From Porphyra umbilicalis (taxonomy: Eukaryota > Rhodophyta > Bangiophyceae > Bangiales > Bangiaceae), in contig KV918825.1 in NCBI GenBank assembly GCA_002049455.2, positions 186,001 through 250,000 on the forward strand: a stretch of DNA of 64,000 nucleotides. The letters run 5' to 3'. Shown one piece after another: positions 248 through 28,487 of the stretch. The notes under the pieces are model-generated. The model saw nothing but the letters and a program-made list of their open reading frames with translations. It searched no databases and had not been told where the DNA came from. Both the position numbers and the translations under genes were made by a program. The number at the start of each line of letters is the position of its first letter. Position 1 is the first letter of the stretch.

Positions 248-283
248 AGAGCACACCCAACAACGTCTCCCCCAAGTTCTGAA
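248..283 (+). repeat. Left terminal inverted repeat, Harbinger A
   Basis: Matches the reverse complement of 14351-14384: 19 of 19 bases at the outer end, then an imperfect continuation (ctcccccaagttctgaa against attcacccagttcaa). It resembles both ends of element B. Confidence 0.7.
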
Positions 284-1704
284 ACTCCAAACGGAATACG
301 CCACGTTTGCTTACGTGCAGGGCGGTGAGCGGCCCCCCATTTTTCTCATCCAAGAGGGCCCTCTGCCCTCCTGGAGTTACCGGAAACGAAGGCTACATGA
401 TCACCAGATGGGGAAAGCAAGATGGGGGATGCGCGCCCAGCAACGTTCGTCCCCAAGTAGTCGAAGTTCGTGCAAAACGTGAAGCAGTATCGATGCCATG
501 ACACACCGGACGAAAAGGCTGCCGTGCGGCAGAGATCGTGAGACGAAGTGTCTATGATCCCAGTGGAACATTTCAAATCGCGTCAATAAAAGACACTTTT
601 GGCACACACGTCTAAAATAGAGAGACACGAATCGTGAACATCGGACGAAGTGGTCGCACCACGCGTCCAGATTCAGCACGGCGGGAGAAACTTGGCACAT
701 TTGTCTCCAACCCGAGTCTCACGGGACACAACAGAGGTGCTGGCGTTGGTCGAGGTTCCCTCAACGGGTGCGTGATGCGATGCGCTGTCGCGACAAGCCC
801 GAGTCGTGGACCGCGCGGTCCGTCCCGAAACGCCTTTCGGGTGCTTCCAGAAGCAACGGTGGCCAACGCCATTCGTTGGACCAGGCGTCGACAGTCCCTG
901 GAGGCGGGCTGGTGCAAAAATCCATTGGGGCAGTATCGCTGGTCCGGCGCCAGAAAACTGGTCCGATCCCGCAACCAGTCTCACGATTTGTTTGCTTGAC
1001 ATGGGGAAATATTGAAAAGTTTGTAGTAGTATGGAGCCTTGTCATTTGCTCGCGGAATTGTTTAGAAAAACTCAGATGGGAGGCGGATTCGATGCGGCGA
1101 GGGGTCAGCCGGCCCGTGATCAGATTGTGTTGCTTCCTGTGTCCTGTGTGCGCCCCTCCCGCCCAACCGGTCATTTGGGGCCACCCCGTGACCGCTGCGG
1201 ATTGGGCGGGGGTGCGTGGAGGGCGCGCGGGTCACCGCGCATTGCGGCTGGGGAGGCGTCAGCCGGGGTTCGTGTCCACCTCGGGCGCCCTCGAAGACAC
1301 CTCGTGTGTTTCGGGCCCGCTGCGGGCCTGCGCCCTGCCCCGCCCCCTCGTCCAGCGCGCACGAGGGGTCCCCCGGGCACGGTCGAGCACTGGCGCAGCT
1401 TGCGGGGGCGCGCCGCCCTCCCGCCCTCTGGCCCAACGACCGCCTGCGCGACACCGATCACGTGCTTTCCGCCGGAGTGCCAGAGCGGAAGACACCGGCG
1501 GCTCCTGCCCCTCCTCCCCCTGCCCCACTCGTGTTGATTCTCTCCTTCTTGCCTCCCGCGCGCGCCTGTTGCAACCGACACGCCGCCGGTGTACCGCGAG
1601 CTCCGGCGGCGCGTCCGTGTGCTCTGGTCACCGCTCCCCCCTTGTCCCCGTCTCCACCCCCGGCCTTCAAAAGCCGGCCTTCTTCCTCCCCCCCCTTTCC
1701 GATC
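284..1704. other. Subterminal region of Harbinger A, no gene recognised
   Basis: Up to about 1000 the base composition is balanced and only short frames exist. From about 1150 it becomes GC-rich with overlapping Arg/Pro/Ala frames on both strands, none resembling a known protein. A C/T-rich stretch at 1640-1700 precedes the ATG at 1705 and could act as a promoter or leader for the repeat-bearing frame downstream. Confidence 0.4.
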
Positions 1705-4270
1705 ATGACCCGTAAGCCGGACCGGGAGCGCGACACGGAGCGTCGCCGTGACCAGCGTCGTCGTCATCAAGAGCGGCTCACCGTGCTCGCGCGGTGCACG
1801 TGCTCTTGACATATCGAGGGCTGCCCACCGTGCTCAACGTCGGCCCCACCACGCTGGGGGCCCGCGCTTCCTGTCTCTAGTAGCTGTGCGCCGCCGGCTG
1901 GCCAAGGACCGCCGGTAGCTGGCGGCGCCTGGGTGCCGCCGCCCAACGCTACACCGAACCAGGGCGGCGGCAATTGGGCCGGGGGGGCGGGACGGTCGTC
2001 ACTGCCAGCGCGCGGCAGCTGGGGCCCGGGACAAAGAGCGCGCCAAGACAACTGGGGCCCTCCGGGAGGTCAAGCAAGTCTTCAAGCCGGCGGCCACGCG
2101 GGACCCTACAACAACTGGGGGCCGCCAGGTGGAGGACCCCCCCAGACCGGCGACTTTGAGCCGATCCGCGACAACAGGCAGCCGCCGGTCGGTGCCAGAC
2201 TGCCGGACACCGGCGGTTACAGTGCGCGTCAGGGGCACTTCGACGCGCCCTGCACGGACGGACAAGAGCCGCCGGCTGCTGCCCCTTCCCCGCTAGCCAG
2301 CGGCGGCGGATCGCCTCGAGCCGGCGGCGGCGCATCACCGGCCGCCGGTACCGCCGGCGACGCGCCCCGCCCTGACGGTCAAGTGCCGCCGGCTGTTGCC
2401 CGACCACCGCAAGCCGGCGGCGGCGCGTCACCGGCTGCCGGTGCCGGCGGCGACGCGCCGCGCACGTACGGACAAGCGCCGCCGGCTGTTGCTTCATCCC
2501 CGCAAGCCGCCGGCGGCGCATGACCGTCCGCCGGTACCGGCGGCGACGCGTTCCGCCCTGACGGACAAGTGCCGCCGGCTGTTGTCCGACCATCGCAAGC
2601 CCGCGGCGGCGCATCACCAGCCGCCGGTTCCGGCGGCGACGCGCCCCGCACCGACAGACAAGCGCCGCCGGCTGTCGCGTCATCCCCGCAAGCCGGCGGC
2701 GGCGGATCGTCTCGAGCAGGCAGGGCCGCGTCACCGGCTGGCGCAATCGGTGGCGACGAGGCCCACACTGACGGACAAGTGCCACTGGCTGTTGCCCGAC
2801 CCCCGCAAGCCGGCGGCGGCGCATCACCGGCCGCCGGTTCCGGCGGCGACGCGCCCCGCACGGACGGAAAAGCGCCACCGGATGTTGCTTCATCCCCGCA
2901 AGCCGGCGGCGGCGCATCACCGTCCGCCGGAACCGGCGACGACGCGCCCCGCACCGTCGGGCAAGTGCCGCCGGCTGCTGCCCAATCGCTGCCAGCCGAC
3001 GGCGGCGCGTCACCGGCCGGCGCAACCGGCGCCGACGAGACCCGAACTGACGGACAAGTGCCGCCGGCTGTTTCCCGACCACCACTAGCCGGCGGCGGCG
3101 CATCACCGGCCGCTGGTACCGACGGCGACGCGCCCCGCCGTGACGGTCAAGCGCCGCCGGCTGTTGCTTGATTCCCGCAAGCCGGCGGCGGCGGATCGTC
3201 TCGAGCCGGCACGGGCGCGTCACCGGCCGGCGCAACTTGCGGCGACGAGGCCCGCACTGACAACAACGTGCCACCGGCTGTTGCCCGACCACCGCCAGCC
3301 GGCGGCGGCGCATCACCGGCCGCCGGTAACGGCGGCGACGCGCCCGGCACGGACAGACAAGCGCCTCCGGCTGTTGCTGCATCCCCGCAAGCCGGCGGCG
3401 GCAGATCGTCTCGAGCCGGCAGGGGCGCGTCACGGGCTGGCGGAACCGGCGGCGACGAGGGCCGCACTGACGGACAAGTGCCGCCGGCTGTTGCCCGACC
3501 ACCGCTAACCCGGCGGCGGCGCATCACCGGCCGCCGGTACCGGCGGAGACGCGCCCCGCCCTGACGGTCAACTGCCGCCGGCTGTTGCACGACCACCGCT
3601 AGCCGGCGGCGGCGCGTCAACGGCACCCGCTACCGGCGCCGACGCGCCCCGCACATACAGACATGTGCCGACGGCTGTTGCTTTATCCCCGCACGCCGGC
3701 GGCGGCGCATCCCCGCCCGCCGATACCGGCGGCAACGCGCCCCGGACGGAAGGACGAGCGCCGTTGGCTGATGTTTTATCCCCACAAGCCGGCGGCGGCG
3801 CATCACCGTCCGCCGGAACCGGCGACGACGCGCCTCGCACCGTCGGACCAGTGCCGCCGGCTGCTGGCCGATCGTCGCTTGCCGGCAGCGGCACATCACC
3901 GGCCGCCGGTACCGGCGGCGGCGCGCCCCGCACCGTCGGACAAGTGCCGCCGGCTGCTGCCCAATCGCTGTCAGCCGACGGCGGCGCGTCACCGGCCGGC
4001 GCAGCCGGCGCCGACGAGACCCGAACTGACGGACAAGTGCCGCCGGCTGTTTCCCGACCACCACTAGCCGGCGGCGGCGCATCACCGGCCGCTGGTACCG
4101 ACGGCGACGCGCCCCGCCGTGACGGTCAAGCGCCGCCGGCTGTTGCTTCATCCCCGCAGGCCAGCGGCGGCGGATTGCCTCGAGCCGGCGGCAGCGCGTC
4201 ACCGGCCGGCGCAACCGGCGGCGACGAGCCCGGCCGTGAAGGACCAGTGCCGACGGCTGCTGCCCAATAG
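1705..4270 (+). pseudogene. Pro/Ala/Gly-rich tandem-repeat open frame, interrupted
   Basis: A single plus frame can be followed from ATG 1705 to about 3500. It opens with a strongly basic, Arg-rich segment of about 25 residues. An in-frame TGA follows at 1807-1809, and from there the frame is open again through a Gln/Gly/Asn/Trp-rich stretch into a long array of 31- or 39-residue repeats. Further stops lie at 2521-2523 and 3169-3171. Between 3500 and 3665 the frame shifts by one and runs to TAG 4268-4270. A typical unit reads DGQVPPAVARPPQAGGGAS, then PAAGAGGDAPRT. The array lies just upstream of, and in the same orientation as, the SANT-like gene. It could be a decayed or spliced low-complexity protein gene, or a non-coding minisatellite whose period happens to be a multiple of three. 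Function unknown. Confidence 0.4.
2240..4235. repeat. Tandem array with 93-bp and 117-bp units
   Basis: The motif g(g/a)acaagYgccgccggctgtt recurs at about 2470, 2563 and 2656, exactly 93 bp apart, then at 2773 after 117 bp. The longer unit contains an extra 24 bp. About 20 units can be followed. Both periods are multiples of three, so every frame stays open across the array, which explains several long antisense open frames. Confidence 0.85.
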
Positions 4271-4326
4271 CCGCTAGCCTGCGGCGGTGGCACGTCCGTC
4301 TAGGCGGTCTTCGAGGCGGGCCGTTC

Positions 4327-5652
4327 ATGACCCCTTCCCCACCTGTGGGTGGCGGAGAGGGTGCTAATATGTTTGCCGCAGTCTACGCGCCGGCTGCCAT
4401 GCGAACTGGGCTTGGCTGGACGGACGAGGAGAGGGTGGCCCTCAGCAGGGCCTACCTGTCTACATCATTGGACGCTTTGAAGGGTTCGGACCAGACTGGG
4501 ACAACCTTTTGGGCGGAGGTGGTCTGGGAGTGGAAGCGCCTATTGGCCGGTCGCCCTGGCGCACGACGGCGCACCGAGAGCGGTGTCGGGGGGGTGCAGA
4601 GGCAGTGGGACAAGATCGGGAGGGGGGTGAGCGAGTTTTGCTCGCACTACCTGGCCGTTAAGCGGCTGTCACTGACAGACAACCCGAGCGACAAGGATTT
4701 GATCAGCGCCGCTGTGGCGCGTTTTTGCGGGCTCAACACTTACGAGTCGATGCGGAAGGACCGAACATCTGACAAGGCGAAGGGCAAGACAACGAAGCGG
4801 AAGGTGAAGCAGACGACCTGCCCGTGGGTGTCGTGTTGGCGGGTGTTATGCCACGTCGACAAGTTTAGCGGCGCCGCCGGGGCCGCCGCCGCAGACGGTG
4901 GCGCTGGCGGCGCCGGCTCCTCAAGCGCGTCTGCCGGCGGCCGTGCCTTCCCAAGAGACACGGACGAGGAGGAGAACGGGCCGCCGGCGGCGGGTGCCTT
5001 CCAGTCACGTCCGGGCGGTTCTAAGGCGGCCAAGCGAGAGATGAGTGAGGACATCCGCACGTCGCGGACGCTCAAGGACAGCTCGGACGCTCTACTGGCG
5101 CTGACACGGGCAACGACGGAGCGGACAACTGTGGCGTTATTCAACACCGCGGAGATGCGCGACACGCCCGAGGCAATTGCCTTCCGCAAGATGCACGCGC
5201 GCAAGCTGATGGCGGCGGCTGGCATGGACTTGTCCTCGTCCCCGCCGGCGATGTTGTCGGGCCCGGCGGGGACGGCCGCCGCCTTAGCGACGGTCGCGGG
5301 ATGGTCGACCGCACCGGCGCCCGTGTCGGAGGTGCATCCGCCGCCGCCGGTCGGCAACAAGCCGGCGGCAGTCGAGTCAGAGGTGCACTCGCCGCCGACG
5401 TCTGGGGACAACACGCCGGCGGCGCCTGAGGCGACAGATCCTGTTCCCAAGACGACAAGCAGAGGCAGGCCGAGCCGTGGGGCTCGGTCCCAGGTGACGA
5501 AGCAGGCGAAGGCGGCGGCGGCACTTGCTGCCGCGTCGACTACTTTGGATAACGACGATGAGGTGTACTTGGTGCCCATTCACCACGACAAGGCGACGGA
5601 CGACGCCGACTCTGCTGTTCAAGAGGCCAGTGGGGACAATTACCATTCCTAG
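4327..5652 (+). CDS. SANT/Myb-like DNA-binding partner protein of Harbinger A
   Basis: This 441-residue protein is the expected second protein of a PIF/Harbinger transposon, a trihelix/SANT-type DNA-binding factor that in known elements helps the transposase enter the nucleus and bind the element ends. Residues about 30-110 hold the helical module: WTDEERVALSRAYL, then GSDQTGTTFWAEV and QRQWDKIGRGVSEF. A basic segment GKTTKRKVKQTTCPW follows, then an Ala/Gly-rich linker. A second conserved block at about 235-295 contains SKAAKREM and predicted helices. The tail is Pro/Ala-rich and ends acidic, with DNDDEVYLVPI near the C-terminus. The same blocks in the same order occur in the protein at 22275-23600. 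No internal stop is present, so this is the better preserved copy. Start chosen: first ATG of the frame, 57 bp after the repeat frame stops. Family-level identification is firm; the exact role in this organism is inferred. Confidence 0.75.
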   Translation: MTPSPPVGGGEGANMFAAVYAPAAMRTGLGWTDEERVALSRAYLSTSLDALKGSDQTGTTFWAEVVWEWKRLLAGRPGARRRTESGVGGVQRQWDKIGRGVSEFCSHYLAVKRLSLTDNPSDKDLISAAVARFCGLNTYESMRKDRTSDKAKGKTTKRKVKQTTCPWVSCWRVLCHVDKFSGAAGAAAADGGAGGAGSSSASAGGRAFPRDTDEEENGPPAAGAFQSRPGGSKAAKREMSEDIRTSRTLKDSSDALLALTRATTERTTVALFNTAEMRDTPEAIAFRKMHARKLMAAAGMDLSSSPPAMLSGPAGTAAALATVAGWSTAPAPVSEVHPPPPVGNKPAAVESEVHSPPTSGDNTPAAPEATDPVPKTTSRGRPSRGARSQVTKQAKAAAALAAASTTLDNDDEVYLVPIHHDKATDDADSAVQEASGDNYHS

Positions 5653-5828
5653 TCCCTTTAGTGCTTGACGTGTATGTGCTTTAATCTGTAGCGTGCCAAA
5701 GGATTCTTTTTCCCGTTGGGAAGGTTTTTTTTTCCTACTTCTGTGCACCGCGCATCCAACCACGAATGCGCAACACCCCTGGTGGATCCCCTGCATTCTC
5801 TGCCCCTGAAGATAACCTCTCACAAACA
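5653..5828. other. 3' flank of SANT gene A
   Basis: Short AT-richer segment downstream of the stop codon, containing the T-tract hairpin annotated separately. No canonical AATAAA was found. Confidence 0.4.
5704..5735 (+). promoter_or_regulatory. T-tract / CCCGTTGGG hairpin motif downstream of SANT gene A
   Basis: Two T-runs flank a small GC hairpin, tcccgttgggaagg, 50 bp after the stop codon. The same arrangement occurs, read in the SANT-gene sense, downstream of the paralogous gene in element B (21011-21047, reverse strand). A related palindrome in the opposite orientation is at 6788-6824. It could be a transcript 3'-end or termination structure; that role is inferred. Confidence 0.45.
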
Positions 5829-5829
5829 C

Positions 5830-6730
5830 CGGCGACGGGCGCTACACCCCCCACACATGTCGGCGCACGAATGCCGGCGGTAACATGCCCGGTCCCTTCC
5901 GCGCTCCAAACACCCGCCGCCGGCCACGCCAACGCCGGCGACTGGCCACTAACATGTAGTCGTCTCCCTTGCCCGCCCCCCCCTTCGTAAACGCAAAGTT
6001 GCCGCCGGTCATACCGACGCCGGCGGCAACCCGCCCCGCCGAATGGCCGCCGCCGGCCGTACAAACGCCGGCGGCAGCACACCTGCTCCCCTTCTCACCT
6101 CACACGTGGGCCGCCGGTCTCACAAACGCCGGCGGCCTAGTTTTCACAGATGGTCGTCCGCCTTGCCCGCCACCCCCGACGCCATGTGCCGCCGCCGGCC
6201 ATATCAAAACCGGCGGCGACACACCAGCACCCCTCCCCGCCCGACACGCCCGCCGCCGGGCTTGCCAACGCCGGCGGCGGAGCAGTCACAGGTGGACCTC
6301 TCCCTTGCACCCCGCCCCCTCCAACACGTAGAGCCGCCGCGGGACGTACCGACCCCGGCGGCGACACACCAGCACCCCTCCCCGCCCAGCACGCCCGCCG
6401 CCGGGCTTGCAAACCCCGGCGGCGGAGCAGTAACAGGTGCGCGCCTCCCCTGCCCGCCCCCCCCCCAACACGCAGAGCCGCCGCCGGCAATACCGACGCC
6501 AGCGGCAACCAGCCCCGCCCGATGGTCGCCCTGAACACACGCCGCCAGTCTTGCCAACATCGGTGGCGGAGCAGGCACAGGTGCACGCCTCCCTTTCACG
6601 CCGCCCCCCCCCCAACACACAGAGCCGCCGCTGGCAATACCGACGCCGGCGGCAACCCGCCCCTTCCCATGCCCGCCGCACACGTGCGCCGCCGGTCTGG
6701 CCAACGCCGGCGGCGGGGCAGTCACATGAA
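5830..6730. repeat. Imperfect GC-rich tandem repeats built on GCCGGCGGC
   Basis: Units of roughly 60-120 bp repeat the phrases cacaaacgccggcggc, ccgccgccgggcttgc and ggcggagcagt(c/a)acaggtg, with C-runs between them. Each unit contains self-complementary GCCGGC cores. Open frames on both strands are by-products of the repetition. Confidence 0.7.
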
Positions 6731-7614
6731 GACGTCGACTTCATCCGCCGCCCCCCCAAAAGATCCTCTCCGGACGACGTTATCGAAGAAAAAAATAAAA
6801 CCCTGCGCAGCAGGGAAAAAAAACAACCTTTTGTACTCCCACCTAGGGCGCAACAAGCGTCCTTCTCTCCGCCCACACGCGTTCAGGAAGGTCATGCCTC
6901 AGGCGCTCGTGCTCCTCCTCGTCCCGTGCCTCCGCCCAAGCGTTCAGCGCGTGGCCAAAACTTCCGGCAGGAAGCGCGCCGGCCGGCGCGATCGTCGGCA
7001 GCCGTGCCCACCTGCATCTGGATGTCATCTTCTGCATCGCACCGCATCTCGAGCGCTGTACATGACATCGGGACGGCTCTCGACGTGCTCCAAGAAATAC
7101 TTTTTTGCATCTTGTCGTCATTTTCTAGTCCGTATATGTCATTTCTCTGCTGCAATGTCCTCGGCCGCGACCGGTCGATTCTAAGACTGGGAGCGTGAGG
7201 ACTTGACCGCCAACCTGACCTTAGGTCAGTCCATAATGATACCAAAGGCAGGCAAATGCGTGCAACCATCCGACCATCCGCAACAACTGTGTCGGCTGGA
7301 GTTCTCCGATCCCGTTAGGACATCATTTCATCTGCACCTCAAGCGTTAGGGTGGGTCCTCAATCAACCCCAGTTCGCGCAGTGGCCCAAGTGAGCGTCGC
7401 CGTGCCTGTAAACAAGCACGAGGAACGTTTTTTGACCACGTGCTGGGGGGCTACAGGAAGTAAACCGAGTCCGTGCAGGGCTGATTGCAGATGATTCGTT
7501 GGATCTGTGGTCTAACAATCGCCAATCACGCAGGTGTGCCTTCTCGACGCCACCAGAGAGACCCACAGCGAGGACGGGCTTCTCTAATGCGACCACGATT
7601 CTGGGTTGAACAGC
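6731..7614. other. Interior of Harbinger A without a recognised gene
   Basis: Contains the A-tract palindrome at 6788-6824 and then unremarkable sequence with only short open frames. No protein family was recognised. Confidence 0.4.
6788..6824. promoter_or_regulatory. A-tract flanked palindrome ccctgcgcagcaggg
   Basis: The perfect stem ccctgc/gcaggg sits between A-runs. Reverse-complemented, it has the same T-tract/hairpin/T-tract plan as 5704-5735 and as the motif in element B. Confidence 0.4.
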
Positions 7615-7725
7615 TCTCACGGCCAAGACACTCCCGAATGACTTGGACTGTGCGCGAGCCTCCGGAAAAGGGCCTTTGAGGCCATCTGAGGGCATTTCCA
7701 TCACACGCTTGGCAGTGATTCAGGA
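7615..7725 (+). repeat. 111-bp direct repeat, copy 1
   Basis: Begins tctcacggccaagacactcc and ends at gtgattcagga. It recurs at 7847-7957 with about ten substitutions. The copies are separated by about 120 bp of unrelated sequence, so this is a spaced duplication. Confidence 0.85.
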
Positions 7726-7846
7726 CTTTGGTGTGGCGAGGACCCGAAGAGCTTCCAGTCGTGGAAGAGGTCTGACGGGTGAGATGTCCTTCAATGTCAT
7801 CCAATGCAGTACAATGTCAGCAAAAACATGTAGATGATAACAGATG

Positions 7847-7957
7847 TCTCACGGCCAAGACACTCCCGAATGACTTGGGCTGTGCGCGAGCCTCAAAAAA
7901 AGGGCCTTCGATGCCGTCTGAGAGCATCTCTATCACACGTTTGGCAGTGATTCAGGC
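7847..7957 (+). repeat. 111-bp direct repeat, copy 2
   Basis: Second copy of 7615-7725. It runs directly into the GC-rich stretch that holds the minus-strand open frame at 7933-8298. Confidence 0.85.
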
Positions 7958-8298
7958 TCTGATTTCGGCGTCGTCAAGGGCGACGCCGTCGGGGCCCGCG
8001 TCGCCGTCGGCTGCGCCGCCCCCCCCGCCGGCGGCGGTGGAACCCCCCTCCAGCCGGAACCCCCCTCCAGCACGTACGTGTGTACGTGGAGGTCCGCGTC
8101 TGTAGGGTGCACCAACCGCAGCACCCCCCCCCCCCGCCCCTTCCCCCCACGCGCCCACCCCCCCTTGTCAATTTCGTCCGCAATGTCGCCCACGCGCACG
8201 GTGGCGACGCGCGGCACCAGGTCCGCGTCGGCGGCGGCCACGTCCAGCCGCCCCCTCCAGACAAGGGGGGCGGCGGGGGGGGGGGGTGGCGCCGCCAA
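7933..8298 (-). CDS. Unrecognised open frame inside Harbinger A
   Basis: A 121-residue frame with less repetitive composition than its neighbours, including DLVPRVATVRVGDIADEIDK and LRLVHPTDADLHVHTYVLEG. These read like folded protein, whereas the ends are Pro/Ala-rich. It may be one exon of a larger minus-strand gene, since the frame upstream of 8298 passes through a G-run where splicing or a frameshift could occur. No family was recognised. It could be passenger (cargo) sequence captured by the large transposon, or chance. Confidence 0.25.
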   Translation of the reverse strand: MAAPPPPPAAPLVWRGRLDVAAADADLVPRVATVRVGDIADEIDKGGWARGGKGRGGGVLRLVHPTDADLHVHTYVLEGGSGWRGVPPPPAGGAAQPTATRAPTASPLTTPKSEPESLPNV

Positions 8299-8299
8299 C

Positions 8300-9095
8300 G
8301 GTGCCGCCGCCGCCGCCCATGGTGGGTTGGGGTGCCGGGGGGGATGGGGCTTGGTGGGTAGCGCGCCGCCAAAACCGGAGGGAGGCGGAGGGAGGAAAAC
8401 AGGCGATGCGGGAGAGGGGGCCGGCCAGAGCGGCGGTACCTGTGGGGCAGCGGCGGGTTAGGAGGGGGGTTATGCGGGGGAGGGGAGGCGCGGCGGGGTG
8501 GGGCGAAGCGGAAAGTGGGGCGAAGGGATGGCGGACAGTCGGGCGGGGGCATGGCGGACAATGGGGTGGACTGTCGCGACGGTCACGGCCACACGTGTGT
8601 CGTCTCGCCCACAAGAGTCGCCGTGCCTTGCAACTGCGTCCGTTGCCGCCGCCACAGTCTGGACGGCCGCCGCCGCAGCGGTCAAGCACGAGCACGCCAC
8701 AAAGAACTACCAAAGAGCATTCATAGAACTGATCTCAAGAATAGTCAGGTGCTCAAAAACTTTCTTGAGAATATTTCAATTCTTAAGCATCCTTGAACAA
8801 GTCGTTTATAAGTATGTACTTCTTCGTGTAACTGTTTTCTAGGAGCACTGTGATTGGCCGTAGAATCCCACAATTGCACTACCGGAGTATTTGTTCACAT
8901 CTTCGGCGGCTATTTCTCGTTTTCGAGTTCCGACTTCTTGTTCTTGAATGGAAATCATTCGTCATTTGTACACTAGTGCTCGATCTTGTTTTCTAAATAG
9001 TTCTGTCGACTCCGTGGCGAACTTGAGATCGGGATAATTCTGTATGTCTTGAGGGAGCTCGCGGGATCTCCCCCTCGATCACGGCGAGGAAAAGG
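8300..9095. other. No gene seen; G-runs then AT-richer DNA
   Basis: 8270-8520 is dominated by G-runs; 8720-9060 is balanced sequence with T-rich patches. Nothing coding was recognised. Confidence 0.4.
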
Positions 9096-9107
9096 TGGGT
9101 GGCGGCT

Positions 9108-9139
<32 letters not shown>

Positions 9140-9550
9140 GCACCGTCCCGCCCCGCCGCCGCGCACGCGGCTCGCCGTGACGCCCCGCGCGCCGGGGCGG
9201 CCGGCAGCGGCGGCGGCGGCGGCGGGGCGGCCACGCGCCGCGCCGCGCCGCCCGTGACGCGACGGCCGTCGATGGCCGCCTTTGCGGCAGCGGCCACCAC
9301 CGGCACCGGCACCGCCCTCTCCCTCCTCTGTGCCACCCACCCGCCCTCTACCACAACGGCGGCGGCGGCGACGACGGCGGCAGTGGCGGCGTCCCCGCGC
9401 GGCCCCGCCACCACACAAGGACAGCACTGGCCTCGTGCTGCCGCCTCCTCCTCACCGCCCTCCCCGCCACCGCCGTCACGGCCGCCGTCGGCGTGGCGGA
9501 CGTACCCCCCGCCGTCGGCGGCGGGGTGGTCGGCGCGCCCACCGCGACCG

Positions 9551-9581
<31 letters not shown>

Positions 9582-10500
9582 TTCCGCCGCCGCCGCCACC
9601 CGACGCCCGCCAAGGCCGCCCGGCCACGGGCATGCGGTGGTTGTGAAGCAGCCACGGGGCGGCGGGGCAACGGCGGTAACGGCGGCGGCGACGGCGGCGA
9701 CGGTGGTGGCGGGAGGGGCGACGGCGGCGGCGACGGCGGCGACGGTGGCGGCGGCGGCGGCGGCAGGGGCGGCAGCGACGGCGGTGACGGCGGCAATGGC
9801 GGCATAGGCGCCGAAGACGGCAAAGACGACGGCAGCGGCGGCAGCGGCCGCGGCAATGGCGGCAACGGTGGCGGCAGCGTCGGCGCCGACGGCGCCGTCG
9901 GCGGCGGCAAGGGCAGTGGCGGCGGCAACGGCGACGTCCCCAACGGCGGCGGCAATGGCAGTGGCGGCGGCAATGGCAACGCCCCCAACGGCGGCGGCAA
10001 CGCCAGTGGCGGCAGCGACGGCGCCGACGGCGCTGATGTCGGCGGCAAGGGCGGTCGCGGCGTCAACGGCGACGCCCCCGACGGCGGCGGTAAATGCGGT
10101 TGCGGCGGCAACGGCGACGCCCACAACGGCGGCGGCAATGGCATTTGCGGCGGCACCTGCGACACCCCGAAAGGAGGCGGCAACGGCGGTGGCGGCAGCG
10201 ACGGCGCCGACGGCGCCAATGTCGGCCGCAAGGGTGGTCGCGGCGGCGACGGCGACGCCCCCGACGGCGGCGGCAACGGCGGTGGCGGTAAAAGCGGTGG
10301 CGGCGGCAACGGCGACGCCCCCAACGGCGGCGGCAATGGAAGTTGCGGCGGCAACGGCAACGCCCCCAAAGGTGGCGGCAACGGCGGTGGCGGTAGCGAC
10401 GGCGCCGACGGCGCCGATCTCGGCGGCAAGGGTGGTCGCGGCGGCGACGGCGACGCCCCCGACGGCGGCGGCAACGGCGGTGGCGACGGCGATGGCAACC
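9096..10500. repeat. GGC/GCC trinucleotide-rich array with about 190-bp higher-order units
   Basis: 9096-9640 is mostly CCG runs. From 9640 the sequence is GGC-rich. A longer unit beginning gacggcgccgacggcg recurs at about 10018, 10200 and 10400, each ending near ggcgacggcgacgccccc. Every frame on both strands stays open, giving Gly-rich, Ala-rich and Pro-rich translations. I treat these as by-products of the repeat and not as genes. Confidence 0.8.
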
Positions 10501-17915: not shown

Positions 17916-17919
17916 CTAG

Positions 17920-18300: not shown

Positions 18301-18479
18301 TGGCGACCGCACAGAGTTGGGCGGCGGCAGCCGCTGCCCTTGTGGCGCTTGCACGAAGGCGGCCGCACGAGCGGCCGACAGCCGGAGATGCTTGTGCTGC
18401 ATGGAACGCGCAGCGGCCGCCGCCCTTGTTGCTGCTCCAAGGTGGCCGCCGCACTGACTCTTGTTGCCGCCGCACCTGT

Positions 18480-19700
18480 TGTTGATTCGCGGCGGCAGCC
18501 GCACCTGTTGTTGCGCGGCGGCCGCCGCACTTGTCATCGTTGCGCTGCTGCTGCCGACGTGCGTCCGCATTTGTTGCTGTCGAGCGGCGCGCCGGCCGCT
18601 GCCTTTGCTATCGCTGCGCGGCCGCCGCCGCACGTCACGTTTCGCGGTGGCCGCCACACTTGTCGTTACGCTGCGGCCGCCGCCCTTGGTGTTGTTGTGA
18701 GGCGGCTGCCGCACTTGCTTTTGCGTCCAGGCGATGTGCCGGGCGGCACCAGCCTCTGGTCTGGATGCACGGCGGCCGCCGCACATCTTGTTGTTGCGCT
18801 GCGGCCGCCGTTTAACCGGGCGCGTCGCGGCGACCGCAGCCCGTGCTGTTGCTGAGCGGCAGTCGCCGCACGTGTTGTCGTGGAGCAGCGCGACAGCCGC
18901 CACACTTGTTGCTGCTGTGCGGCGGCCGCCGCCCTTATTGTCACTGCGTGCCGCCGCCGCACGTGGTCCGACGCGGCGGCCGCCACACTTGTTGTTGCGC
19001 TGCGGCGGTCGCCCTTGGTGTGGTTGCACGGCGGCCGCCGCGCGACTTGGGTATCGCTGCGGCCGCCGTGTAAACGGGCGCGGCGCGGCGACCACAGCCC
19101 GTGCTGTTGCTGAGCGGCGGCCGCCGCACGTACTGTCGTGAAACGGGGCGGCGGCCGCCACAATTGGTGCTGATGTGCGGCGGCCGCCTCCCTTGTTGTC
19201 ACTTCGCGGCCGCCGCCGCACGTGGTTCGGCGCGGCGGCCGCCACACTTGTTGTTGCGCTGCGGCGGTCGCCCTTGTTGTGGTCGCACGAAGGCCGCCGG
19301 GCGACTCGGGTATCGCTGCCGCTGCCGTGTAAACGGGCGCGGCGGGGCGACCCCCGCAAGTGTTGTCGCTCAGCGGCGGCCGCCGCTCGTATTTGTGTGG
19401 ACCAGCGCGACGGACGCGACACTTGTTGCTGCTGTGCGGCGGCCGCCGCTCTTCTTGTCACTTCGCGGCCGCCGCCGCACGTGGTCCGGCGAGGCGGCCG
19501 CCACACGTGTTGATGTGCTACGAGGGTCGCCCTTGGTGTGGTTGCATGGCGGCCGCCGCGCGACTTGGGTATCGCTGCGGCCGCAGTGTCAACGGGCGCG
19601 GCGCGGCAACCGCCGCACGTGTTGTCGCTCAGCGGCGGCCGCCAAACGTGTTGGTGCAGCGCATCACGACGGCCGCCGCGCTTGTTGAGGATGTGAGGCA
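18480..19700. repeat. About 260-bp macrosatellite rich in GCGGCCGC palindromes
   Basis: The phrase cgcacgtggt(c/t)cg(a/g)cg recurs at about 18957, 19217 and 19478, spacings of 260 and 261 bp; a more diverged unit lies further left. Each unit holds several GCGGCCGC or GCGGCGGCCGCC palindromes spaced by cac-ttgttg phrases. A 593-residue antisense frame crosses the array but reads only as Arg/Ala/Pro repeats. Confidence 0.8.
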
Positions 19701-19739
19701 TGCCGTATCGCTGCTTATGTCGTAAAGGCCCCGTCTCCT

Positions 19740-20690
19740 TTCCCAACCCCAGCCACTGCGGCAAGGCCGGGCCCATTCTCCCCCTCCTCACTCGCAACCG
19801 CGTCGCCAGGACGGAAGCCGTCCCCCCCAGCCACACAAGTAACCGCAGCGCCGTGCGGCTGCCGGTGGGAGGCGTCGCGAAAGCAGCGGCCGCCAGCTCT
19901 GGCAGTGGGCGCTGGTAGCCGCTGCACACACAGCACAATGTTGGGGCACATGTCTCCGCCCCCAATGAATGCACCACATCGCCGTCCATGCCGCGCCACC
20001 CAGCTGTCCGCGAGGGCGGTGCGCACACGCGGCCAAAGGTCCGCTACATCCGCACCTTCTCCCCTGGCGGGCGCACACACGCGGTCTGTCGTCGGCCGGC
20101 GGTGGGCGATCTTGCGATCGCTGCGGCCGCCAGCGCTCGCACTGGGCTCTGGCGGCCGCCGGACACACGGCGCAAACACAAGTCCCATCTGTCCACCCGA
20201 CTAACGCAGCGTCGTACGCACCGAGCCACTCAGCTATCCGCGCGGGTGGCACGCGTGGACGCATGCGGCCTAAGCTCCGGCGCATCCCCGCCCCCCTCCA
20301 CACAGGCACGCAGGCTGTCAGCTGTCGGCCGCCGGTGGGCGGCCACGCTATAGCGGCGGCCGAGAGCTCTCGCAGTTGGCGCGCAGGCAGGTGCTGCACA
20401 CACAGCGCAAATGATGGAATGGGCGGATCCCCCCAGCCACACCGGCGACCACTCTGGTGCGGGCCGCGCCACTCAGAAGGCTGCGCGAGCGGCGGGCGCG
20501 GAGGCACGTGGGCACTGGTCTGCCGCATCCCTCCCCCCCCGCCCCCAGGAGGCACGCGCGCGGTTGCCGCGCGGCCGTCGGTGGGCGGCCTCGTCGTGGC
20601 CGCGGCTTCCAGCGCTTGCAATGTGCGCTGTCGACAGACCCACGGGCGCCTTTGCAGCCTTGATTTGGTGGATTGGCTGGATGGTGACAG
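19740..20690. repeat. About 235-bp tandem repeat, four units
   Basis: The phrase around g(c/t)ggcg followed by gctgcacacacagcgcaaa recurs near 19893, 20132, 20371 and 20607. Units are only about 65-75 percent alike, so this array is older than the 260-bp array beside it. Confidence 0.65.
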
Positions 20691-21340
20691 TCGCCGAGAC
20701 TGCTGACAGATCGATCACGAAAAGAGTGTATAACAATTCATACGTATAAGGATTAGCCGCGGTGACGACCGAAAGAACCCGATGCCCACACCAGTGACAG
20801 CCCCCCCCCCCGGCGACTGCGGCTGCGCGCTCCCCTGTGGCACGAGAGGCCGATTTGGGGGCCCGCGCGGCCTGTGGCACGAGCAGCACTGTCTCTTGAC
20901 AAGTCGGCAGCCGCCCCCCAGCGTGCGCGCATGGCAAGCCGCCGTGCTAGAGCTGGTCATGCCACGCGCCTGTCTCGCACCCAGGCTGTTTCTCGAGTAC
21001 GACGGTGATAGGAAAAAAAGAACCCTGCCCAACGGGGAAAAAAAAGACCATCTGCAGCTATGAGTACACACCCTGCAACACAACAACGACCACGACACTC
21101 CTACAGACAGAATACGCGTCACATACACAGAAACACAGCGCATACAAGAAAGTCATGTACAAAGATGCACCGCGAGCGACACACAAAGAGCGTCTGCGCG
21201 CCAAGAAAAAGAGAAAAGACGAGAGCACGTACAGAACGAGACGTAACAGGCATTAGTAACTCAGGCACCCTCTTCCGAGTAGCTCCCGTCCGAGTTACTT
21301 GACTCGGTCCAGGAGCGGCCGCCGTGGCGCGCGAACTTGG
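20691..21340. other. Spacer, no gene
   Basis: Contains the A-tract hairpin at 21011-21047 and an A/C-rich stretch to 21250. It lies downstream of the SANT gene on the minus strand. Confidence 0.4.
21011..21047 (-). promoter_or_regulatory. T-tract / hairpin motif of Harbinger B
   Basis: On the minus strand it reads T-run, ccccgttgggcaggg, T-run. This matches the motif just after SANT gene A at 5704-5735 in sequence, order and orientation relative to the SANT gene. Confidence 0.45.
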
Positions 21341-22274
21341 CAATAATGTCTCAGTCAAAGCCGTCAAAGCCGCCACCGTCGGACATCGACTCGACGGACG
21401 ACGACATCGACGGCGGCGGCCACTTGTGGCGCTGCTGTGGACGCTCAGAGGGGGGAGCGGTCGCCGCAGGCCCGCAAGTAGAGGCGGCGGCAGCCGCTGG
21501 TACAGGCAATGCGGCCGCCGCCGCGGACACGACCGAAATGGACGATGTGGCAGCAGCCGTGGCCGCTTATGGTGACGGCTTGGTCATATCGATGGTCGTC
21601 GGCAGCGGCGACGCCAAGGCGGCGGTCTCGATCTTGAGCTTGGTCGCCATCGCCCGGCGGCCGCGCAGAGTCAAACCCGCTGGCCTCGTGGCCGCCGGCG
21701 GTGTCGGCAAAGTCTTGTTGGCGGCCGCTGCCCGTGTGAGCAGCTCCGCACCCGCAGCCGGCCTCGGCGGCATAGCGGCGGCCGCTGTTGAGAATCAAGC
21801 AGCGCCTGGGGTGAGAGCCGGCGACGCAGGAGCGGCGGCCGCCAGCGGCAGACCCTGAGATGCACAAAGGGCAGCCGTCGCCGCCGGTGGCCGAGCATGA
21901 GACGCAGCCGCGCGAGTAGCCGCGAGCCGAGCCCGCCAAATGGCCGCGGCCGTCGTCAACGGCCGCGGCGGCGGAGCAGTAGCGGCCGTTGCTCCTCGAG
22001 CGGCCGCCCGCGCCACGCGAGGAGCCGCAAGGCGAGCCCGTGATACGGCCACGGCGGTCGTCAACGGCCGCGTCGGCGGAGCAGTAGCAGTAGCGGCCGC
22101 CGCTTCTAGAGCGGCCGCCTGCACCGATGACGCCGCTGCGGCAGCCGCCGACGGAGCAGCGGCAGCCGCCATTGCAGTAGACTCGGTGGGCGTCTTAGAC
22201 GCTTGCGTCCTGCCCTGAGTGGGAGCAGCACAGCCGCCCTCTGGTTCCAAGACGGCCGCCGCCGGTGCCGTAGT
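21341..22274. other. Ala-rich low-complexity stretch between SANT gene B and spacer
   Basis: Open in several frames on both strands with Ala/Pro/Thr-rich translation. A duplicated block of about 100 bp (cgtcaacggccgcg, then cggcggagcagtagc) occurs at about 21945-22000 and 22050-22105. It could be the extended C-terminal tail of the minus-strand SANT protein or non-coding repeat. Confidence 0.35.
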
Positions 22275-23600
22275 TTATCTAGCGGCAGCCGTCATCAATG
22301 CGCGCTCGGCGGAGAGAGAGCCTGAAGCTACTGATGCAGAAGTTGAAGATGCACCTTTGGTGGCCGCCGACGCTGTAAAAGTACCTTTGGCGGCGGCCGA
22401 CGCTGGGGACGCCCCATCGGAGGCCGCCGGCGCGGCACCTGACGACTTGGCAGGATGCATGTCGCCTGAGGGCACCAGAAAGATATCGCCGTCGCCGTCG
22501 ACGGGGATGGCCTTGATCGCCTCGGGCAATGCTGCTTCCCCCGAAGCCTAGACGTGGTCATCGGGTGACCCGCCGTCCACCGCACCGGCGGGGGGCGGAG
22601 CCGCACCTCCTGCCCTGTCGGCGGCGTCGCTCGACAACCGCCCGGCGGCGGCCGGCTCGCCATGAGGCACCTTGATGCCCTCCCTGGCCCTCATCTTTTT
22701 CGTCTGATGCGCCCAGTACGCCGCCCCCATCGCCGTCTCGCGCATGAAGATCTGGCTGAATGCCATCATCATCGTCCGCTGCTCCGTCGCGTCGCCAAGC
22801 TTCTCCACTACTCTGGCGACGCGGCCGATCGTTCGGTCATCCGCAATGGTCTCGGCGCGGGCACGCTTGGCCGCCTTGGTACCAAGAGGGCGGTCCCCCC
22901 ACGGCTTGTCTTCACTGTCGATGACTTCGACCGCCGCCGGTGCGCCACCAGCATTTTTACCGGCAGCCGCATTTGCTGCGGCCGCCGGTGCCGGGTCTCC
23001 GTCGTGAGCCTGCTGCTCCGCGGCGTCGCCGCCGCCATGGACACGAGCGGCGGCCGCCGCCCTTGCCGCCGCGATCAATTGCTTGTCGGCGGCCTTCTTC
23101 TGCATGGAGGCAAAGACGGCTCCCGCCGACTTGAAACGGTGTCGGTCCTTGAGCTGCTCCCAATAATGCGCCCAGGGGCACGACACCTGCTTTTTGCGGC
23201 GCTTGGTGGTCTTGCCCTTGGCAACATCGTCCTCGTGGTCGCCGCGGATGCGGCTGTAGATGTTGCTGCTGCAGTAGAGGCCCTCAGCACAGTTGACTTG
23301 GTCGGCGTGGGTCGAAATGCCCGTCGGATTAGAGAGACGCGCCTGCCAAACACAGCTGGAAAACTCCATCGCGCCGGCCACGATCTTGGCCCCCTGCTTC
23401 CTCATCGTGTCAAACCCCCGCTGCTCCCGCGCCGCGCCGCCCGGCTCTCCGCGGAGCTGTTGCAGCCAGCCCGTCAGAACCCGGCGCCAAAAGTCCTCGC
23501 CCGACTGGTCGGTTCCACGGATTGGGTTGTTTGCCTCAAAAAGCGACGCCTTGATTATTGTATCGTGTTTTGCCATTGTCCAAGCTGGTCCGCGCGTCAT
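22275..23600 (-). pseudogene. SANT/Myb-like partner protein of Harbinger B, one in-frame stop
   Basis: Residues 1-350 (23600-22551) are open and align in order with the 4327-5652 protein: KASLFEANNPIRGTDQSG followed by EDFWRR, then MRKQGAKIVAGAMEFSS, GKTTKRRKKQVSCPWAHYW, an Ala-rich linker, and a second block GTKAAKRARAETI through FMRETAMGAAYW. After a TAG at 22548-22550 the same frame stays open for another 90 codons and includes DGDGDIFLVPSGD. This corresponds to DNDDEVYLVPI near the end of copy A, so the TAG is probably a recent nonsense change. With it ignored the frame spans 1326 bp, the same as copy A. It acts with the transposase encoded convergently at 15677-17920. Start at 23600 by comparison with copy A; the next in-frame ATG is eight codons further on. 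Confidence 0.7.
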
Positions 23601-24384
23601 GCTGCCTAAAGGGCGCGGCCGCCGGCACGACGAGAGGTCGCTGGCCGCAGGGGGGGTCGGCCACCCGTGCGGCGCTGGACGGGCGGCCGACCGACAGCAC
23701 CATGGGCAGCGACAGAGTCAGACGCCGGCCGACTGGAAGCGCTGGCGGCGGCGACAGAGTCGGCGGCCGGCCGTCCGACGGCAGCGGCGCCAGCGGTAGA
23801 GGCGGCGGCGGCACCAACGGGTTCGGCGGCGGCCAAGAACCGTCCTTGCACGTACATCAAGGCCACAGTCGCTCTGCTCGAAGCCTGCGCCGCCTTCGTT
23901 GCAGCAACACTCGCCTTGGTAGCCTCAACGTCGGCCCGCGCTGCGGCGGCGACCGCCACCCGGTACTTCGCCGGCGCGGGCGACAACTTGGCTGCCGCTG
24001 CGGTCGCAGTAGCCGCCGCCTCAGCGGAGGCGACCGCAGCCGCAGAGCCGGCGGCGACCGAGGTGCGATGAACAGCCGACCGATCCTCAGGAGTGCGAGT
24101 GAGGACGAAGCGCCGCTTGCAGACGGGAGGTTTCGCCCACTGCGGCCGAGGCGGCCGCTTGCCAAAGAGGGAAAGCGCGGTGGTGGCGGCAGCCAAAGCC
24201 CAGACCGCAATGACAGAGGGTGCCTCTGCTGGAGTTCTCGCCCCGGCGGCCTCGGGCTCGGCCGCCGCTCGTAGGGTGGCGGCGGGTTACCCCCCGGCCA
24301 CCTGGGCGGGCTTAGCGGTCGCTTCTTCCCTGGCTGCTGGCCCACCGAAGGGCCGCCCGCCGTCCACCGACCCGGGCTTGGAGG
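23601..24384. other. GC-rich region upstream of SANT gene B
   Basis: Low-complexity Ala/Arg/Gly/Pro frames on both strands, none recognised. By analogy with element A this is the 5' side of the SANT gene. Confidence 0.35.
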
Positions 24385-25130
24385 CGGCTCGTTGAGCAGC
24401 GCGCCGCCCGTCCACATTTGCTCGCTTGGCTGCTGATCGTTGGGCGGCGCGCCGCCCGTCCACCTTCGAGAGCTTTGCTGTCGACCGTGGGGCGGCCCGC
24501 CGCCCGTCCATCTCAGCGGGCTTGGATGCCGACCGTTGGGCGGCGCACCGCCCGTCCATTGCGGTTAGAACGGCTGCTGACGGTTGGGCGGCGCGCAACC
24601 CGTTCACCTCGGCGGGAGCGGCTGCCGCCCGTTGTGCGGCGCGCCGCCTGTCCAGCTCGGGGGGCTCGACTGCTGAAGGTTGGGCGGCGCGCCGCCCGTC
24701 CTCCTCGGCGGGCTTGGCTGCCGACCGTTGGGCGGCCCGCCGCCCGTCCACCTCGGCGGGCTTTGATGCCGACCGTTTGGCGGCGCACCGCCCGTCCTCC
24801 TCGGCGGGCGTGGCTGCCGACCGTTAGGCGGCCCGCCGCCCGTCCACCTGGGTGGGCTTGGATGCCGACCGTTGGGCAGCGCACCGCCCGTTTACCTTAT
24901 TGGGTTTGGCTGCCGACCGTTGGGCGGCCCGCCGCCCGTCCACCTCGGTAGGGTTGGATGCCGACCGTTGGGCGGCACACCGCCTGTCCACCTCGGCTGG
25001 CTCGGCTGCCGACAGTTAGGCGGCGCGCCGCACGTCCACCGCGGCGGGCTTCGCTGCCGATGGTCGGGCGGCGCGCAGCCATTCCACCGCGGCGGCGTTC
25101 ACGGCCGTCGCTCTTGTGGTGGCGCACCGC
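24385..25130. repeat. 60-bp tandem array, about 12 units, each with an AscI-type palindrome
   Basis: Each unit contains gttgggcggcgcgccgcccg or a close variant; the core GGGCGGCGCGCCGCCC is a perfect 16-base palindrome. Units follow each other at exactly 60 bp (20 codons), so sense and antisense frames stay open: minus VDGRRAAQRSAAKPAE, plus MPTVGRRTARPP-like. Confidence 0.9.
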
Positions 25131-25430
25131 CCGTCCACGGCGGCGGAGGTGGTCGACGGGGTGGTGGAAGAAGACCACCTTGCAGAACTGGACGCGGGGG
25201 GGGGGGCGGGCGGCAGCAGTTGAACTGGCAGTGCGCCAAGTGCAGGGCGACCGCGTCTGTCCGGTCGCGAAGCAGCCGCAGATCTTCGTTGTTCCGCCAC
25301 CGCTGCCACGTCCACTGGGCGCTTTGCCGCTTGGTGTCAGGAGGCTTCTTCTCAAAAATCATGGCGTCGGCAGCCGCCCCTTACTAGGAAAGGAGCTACC
25401 ACCGGGGGCGGCAACCGGCCATGCGAGCCA
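25131..25430. other. Degenerate GC-rich sequence
   Basis: Decayed continuation of the flanking arrays with a short G-run; no gene recognised. Confidence 0.35.
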
Positions 25431-25640
25431 CGGGCGGCATCCAGCCGCAGCAGCCGGTGACGGCAGCCGCCCACACATCCGCCGCGCGGCCGTCGCCCAC
25501 ACTGCCGACGGGCGGCAGCCGCACACACCACCGGCGAGCGGCCGCCGCCCAAACAACCAGCGCGCGGCGGCCGCCCACTCCGCCGACGGGCGGCAGCCGC
25601 CCACACCACAGGCGCGCGACCGCCGCCCACAGCACCACAC
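25431..25640. repeat. Short array of gccgacgggcggcagccgc
   Basis: The phrase recurs at about 25504 and 25580 with diverged copies between, followed by CGCGCG runs. Confidence 0.55.
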
Positions 25641-27100
25641 TACCGGCGGGCGGACGGAAAGCGCGCGCGCGCCAAACGCGTCAACGCGTGCCCCCCTCTG
25701 GCAGCGCAGGCGGCCGCAAAGCGCGTATTGGCGCGGCAGCCGCCCCCGACGTTGCCGCACCAGCCGCACCCGCCGCACCCGCCGCCGCCGCCGCCGCCAC
25801 CGCCGCCGCCGCCCCCCGAGAGCCGCTTACGAACAGAGGGGGGGGGCCCGGGAGAGGCAAACCGACGTGGGAGACAGGACGGGGTGGTGGGGGGATATCG
25901 CCCAAGAAGGTGCCTACAAAGCAAGTCAAAAAGCGCGCGAAAACTCGAGCCCAAACCCGCCGTGCACCTGCCGCCGTCGAGGTTGCGGCCGCCGGAAAAA
26001 AAGGGCGCGCGTAAAAAGCGTGCGCTCGACGGGCAGCCGCGTCAGCGACGATGACGCTGGCTGGGGTGTGACGATACCACGCAGGAGAGGCGGGTGCTGG
26101 GCGGCAGGCGGCGGGGGGCACGAAGGACGCTTCCAACACGACGGTACGCCCCGCGAGCGTATGCCCCACCACCGACGCCACCGCCACATTCACACCTCCC
26201 CCGCAGGGACACGCATCAGGGGTGGTCCGCGCCCGCGTGGCGCCCAAGACTAAACACGCCGCCTCGAGCCCCGCCACCACACGCCAGCGCTGAACCTCGA
26301 CGGCAGCCGCGGACACGCCTCTCAGCACGGGGCCGACGATGCGTGGCGTGACGGCTGCCGCGCGCGAGCGCGCCCGAAGAGCTGACAACCCCAGGCCGAG
26401 GCCGACAGACCGACAAAAAGTGCGTGGACTCGCCCCCACCACCGAAAAAGAGATATGCTCCACCTCTTATTGCATGGGGCCGAAGAGCCGCGGCCGACGC
26501 GGATATCTAGTGGAAAGTGCGAGCTAGTGCCAGGCGCCAGATACGGGTCACGGGCACGGCGCAGAGAGGGGGCTCCAACGGTCGCAGACAAGAGCTTATC
26601 AAATGGAAGTCAGCTGAAGGCACGTTTTCTGGAGAAATTGTCCTGCTGATGGTGGTTCGCCTCAACCAATGAGAAGGGGCTGTACTGCTGAACAAACGGA
26701 AGCGGAAGCCACGCATCCTGGCCCAGGTTCCTCAGTGCTGTCGCGCCCACCTGTCGGCTGTCAGCCGTCACTAAAAACTGCGGGCCGCCTGTGGGGGCCC
26801 ACGCCTGTGCGGCCTGCTCATGTCCCACCGGCAAACGGCCAGCAGCGCACCACGTGGCCGCGGTGGGGGAACGTGGTGGACTCAGACAGCCTGGTCGGGG
26901 GGTCATACGTAGGGCCTGCGGATCGTTCCTAACACGATCCGCGGCGCGCGCGCGACGCGAGGCGATCGCATGGTAAGCCGTAACGCGGTGGCGCTTGCGG
27001 CCGCCTTGTCTCGGTCGCGTCGTCAGCAAGACGCGTGCCGGACCCGAGACTCGATAGAGACCGGCCCTTCCCAAAAACTGTCGGACACGGTGGGGCGCGA
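25641..27100. other. Subterminal part of Harbinger B, no gene recognised
   Basis: CCG/GCC-rich to 25830, then increasingly balanced. Minus frames at 25681-26463 and 26610-27269 are open for 260 and 219 codons but show no family features. Confidence 0.35.
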
Positions 27101-27164
27101 CCACGCTCGCAGCTGTTGGTGGTGGGCCCTGCCTGGGAGGAGGTGTGACGGGAGGGCCCCACCA

Positions 27165-27640
27165 CTCTCGCAGCTGTATTGCTGATCCCCCAATTCTGTC
27201 CTTATCGACCAGGAACGGTTCCTGGCGGTACGGTTCTTGTGGAACTGGCCATCTATTGGTTAAACGCAACGTAAACAGCTGCTCAGCACGAATCTGAGAC
27301 GTCCTATTGGCTCTCCCAACGCCGCTTCCAAGAAAAACAGAGATCCTTCTTTTTCTTGAGATTTTCTTCCGATGCCTTCCATGTCAAGGGAGCAACCGGC
27401 CCGCAATCGTTGGCATATCGAGATTTTTTGGGAGATACGCAGAAAAGTGCAGAAGAGCGCAGGCGTCGATTGTGCGATCGGGGGCCGTACGGGCACATTC
27501 TGTAAAGATCGGGCCGGACGTGCACTGCTGTCGGACTGCTCGACCAATGAGAGATCTGCATTCATTGCCGTTCCACTATCGTTCCTGGGCGATGAGGCCA
27601 GAATTGGGGGATCAGCAATAGGTTGTTGGCCCTGCTGGGG
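27165..27640. repeat. Imperfect inverted repeat near the end of Harbinger B
   Basis: Left arm 27165-27230 (tattgctgatcccccaattc, then tcgaccaggaacgg) recurs in reverse complement at about 27570-27640. A GC-rich motif with gcagctgttgg lies outside each arm (27110-27180 and 27630-27720). Resembles a small foldback/MITE remnant nested in the large element. Confidence 0.55.
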
Positions 27641-28454
27641 AGGAAGTGTGGCGGGGGGGCACCACCACGCTCCCAGCTGTTGGCGATGGGCTCTGCCCGG
27701 GCGATGCGTGGCGGGGGGCCACGAAAAGTCTTGGCGCGCCTGTGCGCTCGCCACTTTGAGCTGTCCTCCCAGGTCCTTGTCATTCTTCAGTCTCGAGCTG
27801 TACGCAACAGCTTGTACGGCAGCGCTGCATCACAGAGAGCCACAAACAGGGTTCTCAGGACGAGACTCGTTGCCCTGGATCTGCCTCCTTTTCTCGATCT
27901 CGAGGCCCACGACACTTGTTCTGGAGCGGATCACTCGAATGCCGGTCGATCATGTGAGACATCCGTGCCAACGTGCGGCTCCCATGCTCCGTGGAGTGGG
28001 CCGCGCGAGCATACGTCTCACTCTCCATTGTGATTCTCAGCGGGTTCCATCTGGCGAGAGTACCATTGGCTGGGAGAATACCTTACCCGTGTGCCGTGGC
28101 AGCCCGTGGCGCCTCCACGTGGCGCTCAATCGACGATTTTAACGACGATCTCTCATTTTGTGTCATACATGTGCTTCGTGTCTGCATCGTGTCAAATGAT
28201 CTCTGCCTTTCGTCGGCCTGTCAACCGCAATCTGCAGCGGATCTCGCGGATCACGCCACCTCAGAGGCTCCGAAATTCCGCGGAAAGTTTACTCCAAAGG
28301 ATTGGGCCACGGACCGTCCACCAACACTGAGGACTATCGATGAAAAAGTAGCCAGGTACGGGGTAACTCTATTGCACATATGGCCCATTCCAGGACCCTA
28401 CAATAGGCGGCCCCGTGAGGGTGCGCCACGTCGCAAGCCCAATTGAGATTTCAA
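27641..28454. other. Right subterminal region of Harbinger B
   Basis: Balanced DNA with short frames only. Nothing recognised. Confidence 0.4.
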
Positions 28455-28487
28455 GGATAGTCCTTTGACATTGCTAGGTTTGCTCTC
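28455..28487 (-). repeat. Right terminal inverted repeat, Harbinger B
   Basis: Plus strand tagtcctttgacattgctag then gtttgctctc; its reverse complement matches 14411-14440 with small gaps. Confidence 0.6.

Follow-up and report, generated by a model that had tools for sequence, protein, structure and literature searches.

The closest described relatives of the elements reported here are the plant PIF/Harbinger DNA transposons PIF, Pong and MtPH (Medicago), which carry a DDE transposase and a second open reading frame (ORF) between short terminal inverted repeats (TIRs) and produce a 3-bp target site duplication (TSD). According to the available portions of the respective reports, both proteins are needed in PIF/Harbinger elements (PMC2836001), and MtPH members reach 25,288 bp, some of them with 60-bp tandem repeats (PMC2213677). 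In the portions likewise available, all autonomous Harbinger elements of Ectocarpus are described with two tail-to-tail genes, one group duplicating TNA (PMC12477816), and giant EnSpm elements of 16–20 kb are reported from the red alga Chondrus (PMC6431247). A stretch of 64,000 nucleotides from Porphyra umbilicalis (the window; C65:186001-250000 in an assembly of 83.8 Mb and 665 contigs) contains two elements, A and B, whose families have the same gene pair, short TIRs and 3-bp duplication as the plant systems; the plant PIF TSD is TTA/TAA, whereas that of the families described here is TNA. All locus comparisons were made inside this one genome assembly, in which C with a number denotes a contig and L with a number a fetched locus.

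With a probability of roughly 0.93, A and B inserted independently of each other and are now defective members of two abundant PIF/Harbinger families, the cores of which measure about 9.5 and 12–14 kb.

Elements A and B and their empty paralogue

The features concerned are the following (window positions unless a contig is named).
C65:185531-186245: element C, 715 bp, TIR GGCCCAGTCTACAC, TSD TTA/TTA
1–245: right part of element C in the window
246–248: TTA common to C (right TSD) and A (left TSD)
249–14383: element A, PIF/Harbinger family A, 14135 bp
249–266, + strand: left TIR of A
4240–5649, + strand: partner ORF of A, Myb/SANT-like (conserved part 4399–4872; PF14303)
6993–11596: nested insert in A, 4604 bp, TIR CGTCGGCAGC, 2-bp AT duplication
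11437–13559, − strand: transposase gene of A (Plant_tran), broken, its tail an 84-bp minisatellite
14366–14383, − strand: right TIR of A
14384–14410: spacer between A and B, 27 bp, consisting of TCA (right TSD slot of A), 21 bp of old target and TCT (left TSD slot of B)
14411–28485: element B, PIF/Harbinger family B, 14075 bp
14411–14427, + strand: left TIR of B
15233–17538, + strand: transposase gene of B (Plant_tran), interrupted by an insert
16364–16912: nested insertion inside the B transposase gene, 549 bp, bordered by the 7-bp repeat CGTGATG
22551–23717, − strand: partner ORF of B (conserved part 23127–23600)
28469–28485, − strand: right TIR of B
28486–28741: right flank of B, TCA (right TSD of B) and target sequence, found in the empty paralogue too
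C65:156800-158200, − strand: empty paralogue L042 (site at C65:157.8-158.2 kb), holding no C, A or B

The paralogue runs without a break from the left flank of C through TGA, the 21-bp spacer core and TCA into the right flank of B, while the window reads left flank, TTA-C-TTA-A-TCA, 21 bp, TCT-B-TCA, right flank. The two loci are identical at 126 of 144 bases of the left flank of C beside the site and at 18 of the 21 bases of the spacer core. In the paralogue the core passes directly into the outer flanks, so the spacer represents target sequence rather than a piece of a mobile unit. These alignments place C and A at one TNA of the old site and B at another TNA located 21 bp away. The search for empty sites that the preliminary description of this DNA had proposed was thus answered by an in-genome paralogue, with A and B entering at two TNA sites. 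Flanks without the termini, which that description would have counted against the elements, do occur in L042, but they speak for insertion; the spacing of 26 bp in that description is corrected to 27 bp.

The paralogue also holds 68 extra bases without a counterpart in the window, 10 bp beyond the site of B, and its similarity to the sequence following B is interrupted again, by about 630 bp. It is the only partial relative of these 256 bp, located on the same contig at a distance of 28 kb; 116 bp match at 92% identity and a further 105 bp at 86%.

It had also been suggested that A and B move as one 28-kb composite by means of the left end of A and the right end of B. The outermost ends are indeed related inverted repeats, and the outer triplets, TTA and TCA, are one base apart, which is no worse than for A or B alone. 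However, the spacer core runs on into the outer flanks in the paralogue, the A–B junction is unique in 84 Mb, and the families of A and B each recur alone with equal TSDs. No further copy of the spacer was found in the genome at up to 3 mismatches, apart from the paralogue. We therefore reject a composite at this site as extremely improbable.

Several observations weigh against independent insertion of two PIF/Harbinger copies. The triplets beside A (TTA left, TCA right) and beside B (TCT left, TCA right) are each an imperfect TSD, one base off. Precise excision from the paralogue is conceivable, although this would still show separate units. Lastly, the predicted structure of the partner protein was poor (predicted local distance difference test, pLDDT, 63.5) and gave no significant fold match.

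The independent recurrence of each family is seen in its collinear copies. The TIR of A is 18 bp long and perfect (GAGCACACCCAACAACGT), and A is collinear along its length, except for 6993–11596, with the relatives L009, L015 and L017 of 9.4–9.6 kb. The excepted stretch is the nested insert, with its own 10-bp inverted ends; its site is empty in L015, and no stretch matching it was found in L009 and L017. Counted without the insert, A comes to 9531 bp and a relative, C24:231405-240936, to 9532 bp. The TIR of B is 17 bp long with 2 mismatches, and B is collinear with C19:31343-45279 (13,937 bp; 89.6% identity over 13,019 columns) and with C8:113701-125958 (12,258 bp; 87.2% over 11,710 columns), both flanked by equal TSDs. 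The 549-bp stretch of the B transposase gene is missing from both of these relatives. The lengths of about 14.14 and 14.08 kb given previously were accurate but do not constitute a shared trait: since A holds the 4604-bp nested insert and B belongs to a 12–14-kb family, their near-equality is a coincidence. Equal length as a sign of kinship between A and B was considered and is ruled out by the insert.

The nested insert of A contains long low-complexity open frames and 45-bp repeats. Inside B, arms of 41 nt, 93% complementary, lie at 27177–27620, and 27311–27610 aligns poorly with a B relative (123 differences in 215 columns), suggesting local replacement or insertion. Codon-position counts between B and its relative were noisy; windows with uneven counts lay in the transposase and partner genes and also in a few others.

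The picture of two elements in mirror image, with matching inverted ends, convergent Plant_tran and partner genes and TNA duplications in their families, was upheld. The partner lies on the + strand and the transposase on the − strand in A, while in B the transposase is on the + and the partner on the − strand, so that both pairs point inward and the transposase ends of the elements face each other. Plant_tran (PF04827) was detected in two open pieces in A (E 1e-27 and 1e-21) and in B with E 2e-6 and 2e-32, and both PF04827 and PF13359 were found in A, B and two scanned relatives. A search of the PDB by sequence with one transposase piece gave no match. The partner of A matches PF14303 above the cut-off (E 2e-6), three relatives match it more weakly, below the cut-off, and the partner of B had no Pfam match; the A and B partner proteins are nevertheless 28% identical over 354 columns (BLASTP E 1e-25). 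DNA binding by the partner is predicted from its sequence. Both partner ORFs are open, whereas the transposase gene of A changes frame near 13235 and contains a stop codon (12790–12792), and that of B is disrupted by its insert. As both transposase genes are broken, both copies look non-autonomous today.

A selection of long ORFs, 10 from A and B and 8 from relatives, was scanned for coding cargo and returned only the transposase and partner Pfam families; one further match was sub-threshold, at chance level. In relatives, the transposase frames extend into long low-complexity tails (L010, 6038–9385, 1116 codons open; L009, 850–2949, 700 codons). Among the 120 transposase relatives listed of 1085 found, the sole species named was the bangialean red alga Pyropia yezoensis (58% identity).

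Long PIF/Harbinger elements across the genome

Both families display the features of PIF/Harbinger, that is, a 3-bp TSD, a PIF-type DDE transposase, a Myb/SANT-like second gene and short TIRs (17–18 bp). A 14-base TIR pattern with up to 2 mismatches identified only the four ends of A and B in the window, a number that is not by itself above chance (shuffle mean 2.7). With up to 1 mismatch the pattern occurs genome-wide 474 times forward and 499 times reverse, against 176 and 152 for a backwards control, and it is because of this genome-wide recurrence, not the window count, that the pattern exceeds chance. Plant_tran matches in the genome number at least 150 scored (624 candidates).

The ends were sampled as 100 exact matches to the 14-base pattern on contigs C1–C33, and TNA flanks 93 of them. 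Facing pairs, defined as ends oriented toward each other less than 25 kb apart, numbered 29; 27 of these have equal 3-bp duplications (chance about 0.28 per pair), and two, at C2:346234 and C5:237824, have unequal triplets. The 27 TSD-matched pairs span 1,122–22,067 bp with a median of 9,758 bp, 21 being at least 9 kb and seven at least 13 kb long; the interiors were read in part, and some of the longest may, like A, include nested inserts. Within a family, two or three copies align collinearly.

Gene content was analysed by tblastn in 20 elements (18 from elsewhere, A and B). Both genes are present in 13, convergent in 13/13. One gene was detected in six elements and neither in one (L019, 9.5 kb). 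Termini without the gene pair, named in the preliminary description as grounds for doubt, accordingly exist (6/20 and 1/20), beside the 13 elements that carry both genes. Tandem repeats with a period of at least 20 make up 17–33% of the length in 12 of the 14 elements measured, 7% in C30:238359-249730 and 0% in L019, while flanking controls gave 14% and 1%. Minisatellites account for part of the length in most, not all, families.

The long PIF/Harbinger elements are thus supported as a real lineage in this genome. As for the new giant lineage that had been proposed, the long cores stand, being found in collinear copies, but A reaches 14 kb only by its nested insert, and PIF copies of more than 20 kb are on record in Medicago.

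The window contains further repeats. A Copia-like long terminal repeat element lies at 29125–34002, with gag PF14223 (E 4e-26) between 418-bp repeats that are 93.8% identical. Inverted repeats of 763 bp with 98.4% identity bound about 2.6 kb at 54469–57062, possibly a long-TIR element. Direct 500-bp repeats, 4.5 kb apart and 95.6% identical, at 45215–50219 and inverted 537-bp repeats (90.5%) at 61442–63043 are likely mobile elements.

Contacts of element ends across one shared TNA

Element C belongs to a repeated family (40 scored matches), and 12/12 further C-type ends listed are flanked by TNA. C is flanked by TTA/TTA at C65 and by TAA/TAA at C32, and at each place its right TSD is also the left TSD of an A-type element. 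As the shared triplets differ, and a moved C+A unit would have kept its inner triplet, the A type met the C type twice independently.

Such contacts recur. Ends of the GAGC type stand head to head across one TNA, with up to 3 mismatches, at 30 places in the genome against 0 in the control; 14 of the 30 were read in sequence, and in some (e.g., C43 and C84) the second arm was not confirmed as a repeated family. A shorter pattern, TGCTCTNAGAGCA, was found at 53 genome places against 4 in the control, some of them in local repeats (e.g., C9:377322-377381). Among the 100 sampled ends, TGCTC-TNA abuts four and ACTGGGCC-TNA abuts one, a contact with element C, while in the 80-bp flanks each contact motif occurs once at all non-zero distances together.

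Some contacts might be copies of a few old ones, through segmental duplication or unmerged haplotypes. C121 shows 100% identity to C657 along 2183 bp; C408 and C87 share 99.5% identity at the junction and 96.5–99.5% on one side, not the other (1-kb samples, to 15 kb); and the C32 and C259 contacts, at 99.5% identity, were counted once. However, with duplicates counted once, at least seven fetched contacts differ in their arms or triplet (C87-199, C87-208, C121, C80, C193, C274 and C586), and copying is improbable as the explanation. Near-identical contig pairs (L050/L051, L052/L057 and L033/L035; 0.6–2.2 kb compared) likewise suggest unmerged haplotypes or duplications, and copy counts are somewhat inflated.

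A short target preference combined with a high density of elements, and no preference for ends, is another possible but doubtful account. Published accounts of PIF and mPing give a target preference that extends over 9 bp. The maize PIF target is CWCTTAGWG, which CTC-TTA-GAG would match, a string that was not found in the literature checked. At Porphyra ends the base before TNA is C in 43 of the 88 non-abutting cases (P 2e-5), and a GAGC end offers G after TNA. However, this preference is less than twofold; the next base favours C, more weakly (36/88), and T, which the TIR offers there, occurs in only 16/88 cases where about 20 are expected. Moreover, about 0.1 TGCTC-TNA contacts would be expected from composition among 93 TNA ends, whereas four were observed (Poisson P 4e-6). 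Because the preference is less than twofold and the next base of the TIR is not the favoured one, target preference does not by itself explain the excess of shared-TNA contacts. The best-fitting account is that elements inserted one after another, the later one into a duplication already present. Tentatively, a complex of transposase and partner may be guided to resident Harbinger ends, including those of other families, and insert into the TNA beside them; contiguous arrays with a single duplication common to each two neighbours would form in this way, and their outermost ends could mobilise several elements together.

Proposed mechanism and relation to known systems

By analogy with the superfamily, the elements would move by cut and paste, with the Plant_tran DDE transposase and the Myb/SANT-like partner presumably binding GAGCAMACC ends. 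Insertion would take place at TNA, whose duplication is observed. The extra length lies mostly in a large interior that is often rich in minisatellites. In the window, the target offered two TNA sites 21 bp apart, the first taking C and A, with one TTA in common, and the second taking B. At contacts elsewhere, a later element most likely entered the TNA duplication left by an earlier one, the complex perhaps being held at the resident ends, a form of guidance that is proposed here.

Linked elements have precedents. In 2001, Jiang and Wessler reportedly described nested Tourist elements as well as multimers of MITEs (miniature inverted-repeat transposable elements). From the accessible part of its report, KolobokP forms multimers via long direct repeats and an endonuclease (PMC9587614). 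The contacts described here resemble both in that elements are joined, but differ, as far as those accounts go, in that the abutting elements come from different families, are in many cases long and have one shared TNA between them.

In length, too, the available descriptions allow a comparison. The MtPH copies of more than 20 kb in Medicago are portrayed as mosaics with nested insertions or as outlying lengths, most others being shorter than 9 kb, whereas the cores here are collinear at 9–14 kb. The giants named in the available part of the Ectocarpus report are KDZ, EnSpm and Sola-1, not Harbinger (PMC12477816), while in Porphyra it is Harbinger that is long. The Chondrus EnSpm elements, as presented in the text available, are likewise enlarged DNA transposons of a red alga, but they belong to another superfamily and have 4–5 ORFs, in contrast to the two recognised genes here.

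Tail-to-tail genes and TNA duplications (Ectocarpus), as well as PIF copies of more than 20 kb and tandem repeats (Medicago), are already known. The literature searched, which comprised mainly titles and abstract openings, with most subscription papers and Repbase lying outside it, did not describe these families, nor contacts across a shared TNA in PIF/Harbinger. The novelty appears to lie in two features occurring together: several families of a single genome have long cores, and their ends repeatedly meet in exact contact.

In this genome, PIF/Harbinger elements whose cores are long (9–14 kb, with matched ends as far as 22 kb apart) form a common class, in a superfamily that is usually considered small. 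If the contacts do result from end-directed insertion, they would provide a countable system for the study of Harbinger target choice and of the growth of transposon arrays.

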